Shown piece after piece: positions 475 to 5,663 of a DNA stretch of 6,005 nucleotides. The DNA is from Candidatus Pacearchaeota archaeon (lineage in GTDB: Archaea; Nanoarchaeota; Nanoarchaeia; Pacearchaeales; GW2011-AR1), in the NCBI GenBank assembly GCA_002690445.1, contig NZER01000122.1, positions 1 through 6,005 on the forward strand. The letters are read 5' to 3'. Under the pieces are notes generated by a model. That model searched no databases. It saw only the letters and a program-made list of their open reading frames with translations, and was not told where the DNA came from. A program made the translations under genes and the position numbers. Positions within the stretch are counted from its first letter, which is position 1. Each line of letters starts with the position of its first letter.

Positions 475-1347
475 ATGAAGAATATACGGTGGCTTAATAG
501 TATATTTTTAATAAGCACCCTTCTGGTGACCCTTATAGGCCTTCCCATCTTTTGTTATTATTTTGGAGGGCAAATTAATTGGTGGTTACATGGGACCATG
601 TTTGTGTTGATGTTTATCGCATCAGGCCTTAGTATTACTTTGGGCTATCATCGTCTTTTTGCTCATTTATCTTTTAAGGCTAAATGGCCTATTAAATTTT
701 TAACCGCCGTGTTTGGGGCAACGGCCCTGGAAAACTCGATACTTGAATGGTGCTCAGATCATCGGCGACACCATAAGCACACAGACCAAGAGGATGATCC
801 CTATAATATTCAACGAGGATTTCTCCATGCACATATGGGGTGGATTATGCTTCGTCCATTAAACGGAGAATCTCCGCTAACAAACGTTAACGATTTGAAA
901 CAAGATCCACTAATCCTTTGGCAGCACAAATGGTGGGCGGTTATAGGGATTTTAGTTGGTTTTGGCCTACCCGCACTCATTGGTTTTCTTGCTGGGGGTG
1001 TGATGGGCGGGGTAGCGGGCCTACTCATGGGCGGGGTTACCCGACTAGTTGCAGTGCACCATATGACCTTTTTCATTAATAGCCTATGCCATACATTAGG
1101 CACACAACCATACTCAAATAAATGCTCCGCAAAAGACAGTTGGCTCATGGCCCTGTTTACATTCGGCGAGGGCTATCACAACTTTCACCACGAGTTTCAG
1201 CACGACTACCGTAACGGGGTTAAACCTTGGCAGTTTGATCCAACGAAATGGACTATTCTACTGCTTGAGAAAGTTGGCTTGGTTTTTGATCTTCGAAAAG
1301 CTAGCGCAAAGGCAATTGCTGCGGCCCAAAAAAATGAGTATAAATGA
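475..1347 (+). CDS. Membrane acyl-CoA/acyl-lipid delta-9-type fatty acid desaturase
   Basis: This is a 290-residue di-iron membrane desaturase of the stearoyl-CoA desaturase/DesC/OLE1 family, which puts a cis double bond (usually delta-9) in a fatty acyl chain using O2 and an electron donor. All three histidine boxes are present: HRLFAH (59-64), HRRHH (96-100) and HNFHH (235-239). The additional metal-site residues Asn202 and His206 in INSLCHTLG are also present. Hydrophobic segments lie near 9-31, 38-56, 72-90 and 153-190. The length is normal for bacterial members and no residue of the iron site is missing, so it is probably active. The tail PWQFDPTKW is typical of bacterial homologues. A Gly-rich stretch at 174-188 contains MGGV twice. 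It lacks a strong ribosome-binding site and probably depends on coupling to the pilin-like gene 10 nt upstream. The electron donor and exact regiospecificity cannot be read from the sequence. Confidence 0.95.
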   Translation: MKNIRWLNSIFLISTLLVTLIGLPIFCYYFGGQINWWLHGTMFVLMFIASGLSITLGYHRLFAHLSFKAKWPIKFLTAVFGATALENSILEWCSDHRRHHKHTDQEDDPYNIQRGFLHAHMGWIMLRPLNGESPLTNVNDLKQDPLILWQHKWWAVIGILVGFGLPALIGFLAGGVMGGVAGLLMGGVTRLVAVHHMTFFINSLCHTLGTQPYSNKCSAKDSWLMALFTFGEGYHNFHHEFQHDYRNGVKPWQFDPTKWTILLLEKVGLVFDLRKASAKAIAAAQKNEYK

Positions 1348-2908: not shown

Positions 2909-3388
2909 ATGAATATAATAACATATACAAAAATAAGATTACAAAATCTTCTTAAAAAGCAAATAGCAAATAAGGATTGTAATTTTTATTTAAACGATAA
3001 GTCATATGCCGTGATGGACTCATCCTGGCTTAAGGGTGATTGTTATCAAGCATATCGCCGATGGCTAAACTTGGCAGGGATAAGCAAATGGAAGACGAAT
3101 TGGGACTGCGATAATTTCGCGCAGAGCTTCAAAACTTACGTAAACATACTTCATGCCCGCGAGAACCCAGAAACGTTCACCACGAAGCACGCGGGCGCCA
3201 AAAACACCACTGACGCACATGCCGCGGCTGTGGGAGTAATGTTTTTCAAGAATTCTGATCGATCTGCGCATGCAGTCAATATGGTGATCGCGGAAAATGA
3301 TGAAATTTTGTTCTTTGAACCCGATGGAGGTGCATTTTTAAATTTAAACAATAAACATAAGGAGAGTATATGGTACGTCAACTTTTAA
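2909..3388 (+). CDS. Papain-like/MOA-related cysteine peptidase candidate
   Basis: The protein has 159 residues. Three blocks suggest a papain-like (transglutaminase/NlpC-like) fold: WDCDNFAQSF with Cys67, SAHAVNMVI with His121, and ILFFEPDGG with Glu137/Asp139. The spacing and the wording Cys-Asp-x-Phe-Ala, His-Ala-x-Asn, Glu-Pro-x-x-Gly match, from memory, phage proteins annotated as related to the C-terminal domain of the Marasmius oreades agglutinin, which is a cysteine protease domain. No signal peptide or membrane segment is visible, so it would act in the cytoplasm, in the virion, or after release through a holin. It could cut peptide bonds, including those in cell-wall stem peptides, but the substrate is unknown. 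It starts 2 nt after the lipoprotein stop and its last 19 nt overlap the next small gene, so it belongs to this operon. The family match is moderately sure; activity is inference. Confidence 0.75.
   Translation: MNIITYTKIRLQNLLKKQIANKDCNFYLNDKSYAVMDSSWLKGDCYQAYRRWLNLAGISKWKTNWDCDNFAQSFKTYVNILHARENPETFTTKHAGAKNTTDAHAAAVGVMFFKNSDRSAHAVNMVIAENDEILFFEPDGGAFLNLNNKHKESIWYVNF
3359..3364 (+). promoter_or_regulatory. Strong Shine-Dalgarno for the 43-aa gene
   Basis: AAGGAG lies 5 nt before ATG 3370, inside the end of the peptidase gene. It is the best ribosome-binding site on the plus strand of this window and decides that the short following frame is translated. Confidence 0.7.
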
Positions 3389-4631: not shown

Positions 4632-5453
4632 TTATTTATATTTTTTAATTATCGAGTCCAACTCATCTTTTTTATAGTAAAATTGCATCCAATCCATGTT
4701 TGACATGAGATCTATATCATCTTTTGAATATTTATAGTCTTTTTTGAACTGTCTGTACATATCGGAGTACCATTTTTCAGAAGACCTGTTTTTTTCTTCT
4801 AAAATCGGGCTTTGAATAAATATTTTATCAAAAACAGACTGCCAATATTGAATATCTTCAAATCTGAGCGTCAATATTGTGACATTGCCCGCGGTATGTA
4901 TTGAATATTTCTCTTTAAAATCAAAAGGTTTGTCAAATACGTTCGTATTTAAGACGCTATTTAAGTTGTCGAACCAATTTGCCAATTTTTTATTGTGAAT
5001 TTTGTTGAAGATCGAGAAATGTTTGCGTAATTCTTGTTGATCTTGAGTAGATTTTCCATCTTCTGCGAGTTGTATGTAATGTTGTTTATGCTGATCGTCT
5101 TCTTTGTCTAGATAATGCCATTTTATTGTTGAAATCTGAGCGTCAATATTGTAATTTTGTCTTAAATGGGATTTAGCCCATTGCATTACTTGATGAAGAT
5201 TTTCCCCTGCGGCACGATATGGCGTATATTTATAAAATTGCTGAAAAAATCGTGAAATATTTTTATCAAACAGATTTCTGGTCAAGCTTATTAATAGTAC
5301 TTTTTCATTTTTTTTGATTTGTTTTATTGGCTCATCTATATGCGTATGCACCGCGTTTTTATGCATAAGTTCCATTGCTTTATGCAGTGATGTGCTTCCG
5401 ACGCTTCCATAAGAATAAACAAGCACTTTGTCTAAATTATTTAAATAAATCAC
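4632..5453 (-). CDS. Sulfotransferase-like (capsular polysaccharide synthesis family) protein
   Basis: The protein has 273 residues. The N-terminus has a strand and P-loop-like turn, LVYSYGSVGSTSL at about 11-23, as used for the 5'-phosphosulfate of PAPS. LISLTRNLFDKNISRFF at about 54-70 matches the 3'-phosphate binding element with Arg59 and Ser67. The C-terminal half has LANWFDNL (158-165), NVFDKPFDFKEKYSI (171-185) and ILTLRFEDI (193-201), which I recognise from proteins annotated as putative capsular polysaccharide synthesis/sulfotransferases. Members are expected to move sulfate from PAPS to a glycan or similar acceptor. The start is GTG 5453, backed by AGGAAG 6 nt upstream. The region at about 75-150 looks lineage-specific and hydrophilic. 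A 21-bp sequence occurs twice in the gene in different frames. It is the first gene of an operon with the oxygenase. Confidence 0.78.
   Translation of the reverse strand: MIYLNNLDKVLVYSYGSVGSTSLHKAMELMHKNAVHTHIDEPIKQIKKNEKVLLISLTRNLFDKNISRFFQQFYKYTPYRAAGENLHQVMQWAKSHLRQNYNIDAQISTIKWHYLDKEDDQHKQHYIQLAEDGKSTQDQQELRKHFSIFNKIHNKKLANWFDNLNSVLNTNVFDKPFDFKEKYSIHTAGNVTILTLRFEDIQYWQSVFDKIFIQSPILEEKNRSSEKWYSDMYRQFKKDYKYSKDDIDLMSNMDWMQFYYKKDELDSIIKKYK
4860..4880. repeat. 21-bp exact direct repeat, copy 1
   Basis: The sequence beginning AAATCTGAGCGTCAATATTG is identical over 21 bp to 5132-5152, 272 bp away in the same gene. On the coding strand this copy encodes TILTLRF, within the family-conserved LRFEDI strand. 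Its right end contains the palindrome CAATATTG, which also occurs at 4843-4850. Confidence 0.9.
5132..5152. repeat. 21-bp exact direct repeat, copy 2
   Basis: This copy is identical over 21 bp to 4860-4880 but is read in a different frame, giving NIDAQIS within YNIDAQISTIKW, in the variable middle part of the sulfotransferase-like protein. Bases flanking the two copies differ on both sides, so the repeat has sharp ends. Confidence 0.9.
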
Positions 5454-5504: not shown

Positions 5505-5527
5505 AATAAAACAAAAATGATTGGAGA

Positions 5528-5597
5528 TTGAAAAAACGGCCCCCCCGCGGCCCTTCGCGATATCAAGAGTGATTTTTTTTTGAAAAAACGGGGGGCC
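5528..5597 (-). terminator. GC-stem/T-run element flanked by a 12-bp direct repeat
   Basis: The left arm at 5538-5547 (GGCCCCCCCG) pairs with CGGGGGGCC at 5589-5597, nine pairs with one bulged C. The 41-nt loop itself contains an A-run/T-run. Read on the minus strand, the closed stem is followed at once by GTTTTTTC, the form of an intrinsic terminator. It would stop minus-strand transcripts coming from the right just before the operon promoter. TTGAAAAAACGG occurs as an exact direct repeat at 5528-5539 and 5580-5591, so the A-run/GC-run boundary is duplicated. Confidence 0.4.
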
Positions 5598-5663
5598 TTC
5601 TGGGGGGTAGGGGGTGCCCGCTAGCTGGCAGGATGCGTGCCAACTGCACTGGCTTGGGCCAGA
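5548..5663. other. GC-rich structured intergenic island
   Basis: No credible gene covers this part of the 5454-5772 gap. It stands out from the AT-rich surroundings through G-runs at 5590-5595, 5602-5607 and 5610-5614 and several short inverted repeats: TGCC 5615-5618, TGGCA 5626-5630, TGCCA 5638-5642, and CTGGC-TTGG-GCCAG at 5649-5662. GGCCC at 5549-5553 can pair with GGGCC at 5656-5660, closing the whole island. It could be a structured RNA, a replication or packaging site, or a protein-binding region; the sequence alone does not decide. Confidence 0.45.

Follow-up and report, generated by a model that had tools for sequence, protein, structure and literature searches.

How does one gene come to hold the same 21 bp twice, in two codon phases and with unrelated sequence around each copy? 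The question is raised by an open reading frame (ORF) of the window, as the whole 6005-bp stretch of DNA analysed is called here. This ORF (4632..5453, minus strand) starts, as listed, with GTG and encodes a sulfotransferase-like protein of 273 amino acids. The 21-mer AAATCTGAGCGTCAATATTGT lies inside it at 4860-4880 and again at 5132-5152, both positions being given on the plus strand. The likeliest answer is that a brief copying event on the same strand left the repeat behind as a scar, a reading that can be held with moderate confidence and that has to be weighed against coincidence, a false assembly join and a selected DNA motif.

The two copies and their frames

The copies are identical at 21/21 positions. 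No other exact direct repeat in the window is as long, and no further copy is found there with up to three mismatches allowed. Their starts are 272 bp apart on the same strand, a distance not divisible by three. Copy 1 (4860..4880, minus strand) is read in phase 0 and encodes residues 192-198, TILTLRF, a conserved strand just before E-D. Copy 2 (5132..5152, minus strand) is read in phase 1 across codons 101-108; it runs from the second base of codon 101 to the first base of codon 108, and these partial codons flank NIDAQI (residues 102-107). Read in the phase of the putative source, this part of the middle would give KITILTLRFQQ. The initial annotation had described two identical copies with different flanks, one giving TILTLRF in a conserved strand and the other read in a different frame within a variable middle region, and it had excluded duplication at the protein level on account of the differing frames. 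All of this is borne out, the second copy being the one that contains NIDAQI.

Outside the 21 bp the copies show no significant similarity, the 60-bp flanks scoring at chance level (p 0.36 and 0.51). When the program picks the alignment edges, 27/31 bases match, and a loosely scored alignment around the copies reaches 25 against a null mean of 21. A longer degenerate duplication was also considered, as a gapped alignment can be drawn from TGCC to TTG, yet it was rejected on the same flank scores. Full identity with chance-level flanks fits the copying of a short patch. The unrelated flanks are equally what a coincidence would leave, and it counts against copying that the match does not noticeably continue past the edges of the copies.

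The conserved strand and the lineage-specific middle

The window protein is assigned as sulfotransferase-like by its predicted fold, a Pfam match and known motifs. It matches the Pfam family NKWYS with 49.4 bits against a curated cut-off of 25.1, and the same family matches 10/11 members of the homologue set at E 0.01. The core of the structural model matched the solved sulfotransferases Teg12 and SULT1C3 in a second structural comparison; no PDB entry was matched by Foldseek with an E of 0.001 or lower, and a sequence search for a solved structure with the profile of A2 gave none at E 1. The 3'-phosphate-binding motif of sulfotransferases is R-x7-S, and R59 and S67, which have this spacing, are invariant in 11/11 rows of the alignment. 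Active PAPS-dependent sulfotransferases typically carry a lysine in the 5'-phosphosulfate loop, where the window protein reads GSVGS (5394-5408, minus strand). This first-loop lysine is present in 7/7 distant relatives (P0005-P0011), while P0002 and P0004 read GGVGS and P0003 has a gap. As the first loop has no lysine, the protein is called sulfotransferase-like and no activity is claimed for it. It has in common with PAPS-dependent sulfotransferases such as Teg12 and SULT1C3, and with NKWYS, the predicted fold, the R59...S67 spacing and the LRFED strand, and it differs from these enzymes in about 65 unmatched middle residues and in the missing lysine.

The two copies lie in very different parts of this protein. 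Copy 1 falls on strand 191-197 of the model; TILTLRF is identical in P0001-P0004 and has recognisable counterparts in the remaining seven homologue rows, and R197, E199 and D200 at this place do not vary in any of the 11 rows. Copy 2 sits in a lineage-specific middle (5022..5219, minus strand; approximately residues 79-144, the edges being approximate), for which no relatives were detected. Identity between the window protein and P0002, P0003 and P0004 is, respectively, 8, 15 and 8% over this middle (49-60 aligned columns), whereas over residues 145-273 the values are 84, 95 and 84%; among themselves, P0002-P0004 are 38-58% identical over the middle. Sliding identity also marks residues ~79-144 as divergent, and pLDDT is under 50 at residues 77-135, a stretch that takes in copy 2. 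A protein search with residues 74-146 returned only the protein itself, among 2 candidates. The G+C content of residues 77-135 is 37%, compared with 29 and 30% elsewhere in the gene, a value that comes from 59 codons only. If the 21-mer is set aside, matches between the middle and the rest of the window reach only 11-12 bases, a point against copying.

It was also considered that the middle might be the homologue middle read in another frame. This was discarded, as no six-frame piece rose above the shuffled 95% level; one P0003 piece equalled that level, in the normal frame, by way of its TLDQEEL edge. The homology of the protein is mosaic: the 95% identity of P0003 over residues 145-273 is accompanied by 40% over the aligned residues 1-78, where its N-terminus is possibly cut short, and P0003 and P0004 each have additional segments peculiar to them, so that the N-terminal part and the middle look as if they turned over fast or recombined.

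Aligning homologous genes had been proposed in the initial annotation as the way to see whether copy 2 is an insertion specific to this genome. Copy 2 does lie in sequence that the homologues found do not share, although the specific part is about 65 residues and not just the 21 bp. At the level of the protein, the comparison of the recipient site finds the entire middle different from that of P0002-P0004, so that the 21 bp cannot be set apart as an insertion. For a comparison at the DNA level, no close homologue was confirmed in viral_contigs (A1 or A2; two peptide patterns per scan) or in genome_contigs (A1; two peptide patterns), and tblastn at E 0.001 found none in the phage collection. 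Of the observations at this locus, only the divergence of the whole middle from that of the relatives found is of wider note.

Coincidence, assembly and a possible DNA motif

The repeat had been called very unlikely to arise by chance, and for a single window this stands: from base composition, about 1e-5 direct pairs of 21 bp are expected in 6005 bp. In simulated Markov sequences no repeat exceeded 15 bp (150 sequences of order 1) or 16 bp (150 of order 2), and 1/150 sequences of order 3 held a repeat of 25 bp. Codon-order shuffling of the gene gave an out-of-phase repeat of at least 21 bp in 57 of 1,779,871 shuffles (~3e-5 per gene); in a smaller run that accepted any phase, 1/3,000 reached 21 bp. 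The claim does not extend to a scan of very many windows, which would meet such an arrangement by chance. Coincidence is the leading alternative, and a serious one, though we consider it less probable than copying. It would mean that two unrelated stretches, one encoding TILTLRF in phase 0 and the other NIDAQI in phase 1, contain the same 21 bp by accident, and that a search over many windows picked out the pair. Against it stand the low expectations per window and per gene, together with the fact that the repeat joins a conserved element to a lineage-specific part of the same gene.

The control loci bear on both sides of this question. No out-of-phase exact repeat of at least 19 bp was found inside any one of 1225 control ORFs (open frames of at least 100 codons; 126 IMG/VR loci, 1.10 Mb), which again speaks against coincidence. 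Six out-of-phase pairs were found at 17-18 bp, 2 of them reaching 18, and all 6 come from a single ribosome-site-like element of L030 and L110. These two loci have sequence in common, as have L024 and L093, the control set not being de-replicated. The controls are not a random sample, since 120/126 were chosen by a ribosome-site-like 15-mer, among the matches listed. These counts leave out repeats whose dinucleotide entropy is low, pairs whose copies overlap, almost touch or lie over 6 kb apart, and k-mers that occur more than 6 times (within-ORF count) or more than 4 times (ORF-independent count). When ORFs were disregarded, isolated exact direct repeats of at least 21 bp within 6 kb, isolated meaning a flank identity under 0.42, amounted to 14 pairs in 8/126 loci, and these favour coincidence; inverted repeats of the same kind gave 0 pairs in the 126 loci. 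Short direct dispersed repeats thus arise there somehow, coding constraint included, which is in keeping with copying; by eye, several of them resemble repeated ribosome sites or peptide motifs. One such locus, L024, holds at 11623-12028 an exact direct repeat of 38 bp, whose copies lie 368 bp apart between unrelated flanks; each copy is read as HMIKEFADTFAV in its own frame, and the same element is present in L093.

A further point for coincidence comes from the 21-mer itself. It has 0 exact matches in genome_contigs and 2 in viral_contigs, at L001:6031-6051 and L002:3511-3531, within unrelated ORFs of 657 and 812 amino acids, whose products we take to be fibre-like and tail-sheath-like, respectively. 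Both ORFs read it as NIDAQI, in the phase of copy 2, and the two loci share just one further base, at the left edge (22 bp in all). The 21-mer can therefore arise without copying from a sulfotransferase-like strand. Its 16-mer core occurs in 6 stretches of viral_contigs, two of which (L003 and L004) are relatives, and the reversed core has no match there; the phage collection has no match to the whole 21-mer among the matches listed. If the bases were independent, fewer than 2/6 of the core matches would be expected to reach 21 bp. This excess speaks more for coincidence, with NIDAQI spelled by the same codons, than for a mobile motif.

It had also been suggested that the 21-mer could be a recombination site or a selected nucleotide motif, perhaps centred on the palindrome CAATATTG. 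This is hardly credible. The palindrome occurs at 4843, 4872 and 5144, three times against 0.20 expected, and the two further viral copies of the 21-mer, above what the core matches suggest, would point the same way. Two of the three palindromes belong to the repeat itself, however, and the third (4843..4850), whose position had been given correctly, falls on the Q-Y-W codons that directly follow the conserved LRFED, so that it is explained by coding and needs no motif. The 21-mer does not recur in genome_contigs as a regulatory or recombination motif would, its two viral occurrences are inside unrelated ORFs with one further base in common, and no recombinase was recognised among the ORFs scanned.

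An assembly artefact, in which a false join or loop of k-mer size was made on a short metagenomic contig, is improbable, if less so than a motif. The repeat is exactly 21 bp long, 21 is a common assembler word size, and the protein is known from one contig of 6005 bp. On the other hand, the reading frame is uninterrupted, and the relatives have homologous sequence, in the correct order, on either side of the middle. A false join would presumably still need a real molecule in which the 21-mer stands beside the middle sequence, and therefore it would not remove the coincidence.

Probable short same-strand copying and related events

The copied-segment insertion raised in the initial annotation remains the best explanation; we infer it from the repeat, as no homologue DNA showing the insertion was found. 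Full identity, a source only 272 bp away and a shared strand are what a short direct templated copy would leave. The proposed event would have taken place while the middle of the gene was being rebuilt. Approximately 21 bp of the conserved strand, with copy 1 as the native sequence, would have been copied to a site 272 bp upstream in the coding sense, in a loop that probably tolerates very different sequences; there the derived copy 2 would have arrived in another codon phase and been read as NIDAQI. The direction from copy 1 to copy 2 is suggested by the conservation of copy 1. As 21 bp correspond to seven codons, an insertion of exactly that length would have kept the frame. The repeat would then have arisen incidentally as a loop of a sulfotransferase-like protein turned over, and no function is proposed for it. 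A broader version, in which the sulfotransferase-like genes of this group renew a surface loop with short out-of-frame copies of their own coding DNA and without a dedicated retroelement, is very unlikely.

Direct templated insertions at broken DNA ends are short direct copies of nearby sequence placed at an unrelated site, and the relevant papers found are on eukaryotes. The window repeat resembles them in being a short direct copy of nearby sequence at an unrelated site, and it differs in that neither a repair gene nor a telling junction accompanies it. The four-point model of short-range template switch mutations, in the part of its source available, describes inverted copies (PMC7954356). 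As in that model, a short stretch from tens to hundreds of bases away would have been placed at another site in one event; unlike the model's reverse-complement copy, the copy of the window is direct, both copies being on the same strand, and it comes without an ancestor-descendant pair. It is not placed in that family. No directly comparable case in bacteria or phages was found in the titles and abstract openings of the papers listed, although one may still exist in print; PMC12619124, by the part of it available, concerns an RNA virus.

If the copying is real, the locus offers a clean small example of a tolerated loop that gains sequence from its own gene in another frame, and if the match is a coincidence, the repeat does not matter. 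In either case it does not point to a new system, being a true and locally rare feature with an ordinary explanation.

Elsewhere in the window, the ORF at 475-1347 (plus strand) encodes a fatty acid desaturase (Pfam) that shares 44.5% identity with a desaturase of Acinetobacter phage MD-2021a (254 kb), and the ORF at 2142-2906 has no relatives in viral_contigs. The ORF at 2909-3388 (plus strand) matches Agglutinin_C exactly at the cut-off (26.8 bits), and it also has a weak papain-like match that is below the cut-off (E 0.026). The region 5512-5620 contains runs of G and of C adjoining AT-rich sequence, and within it lies an imperfect direct repeat of 28 bp (5512-5539/5564-5591).
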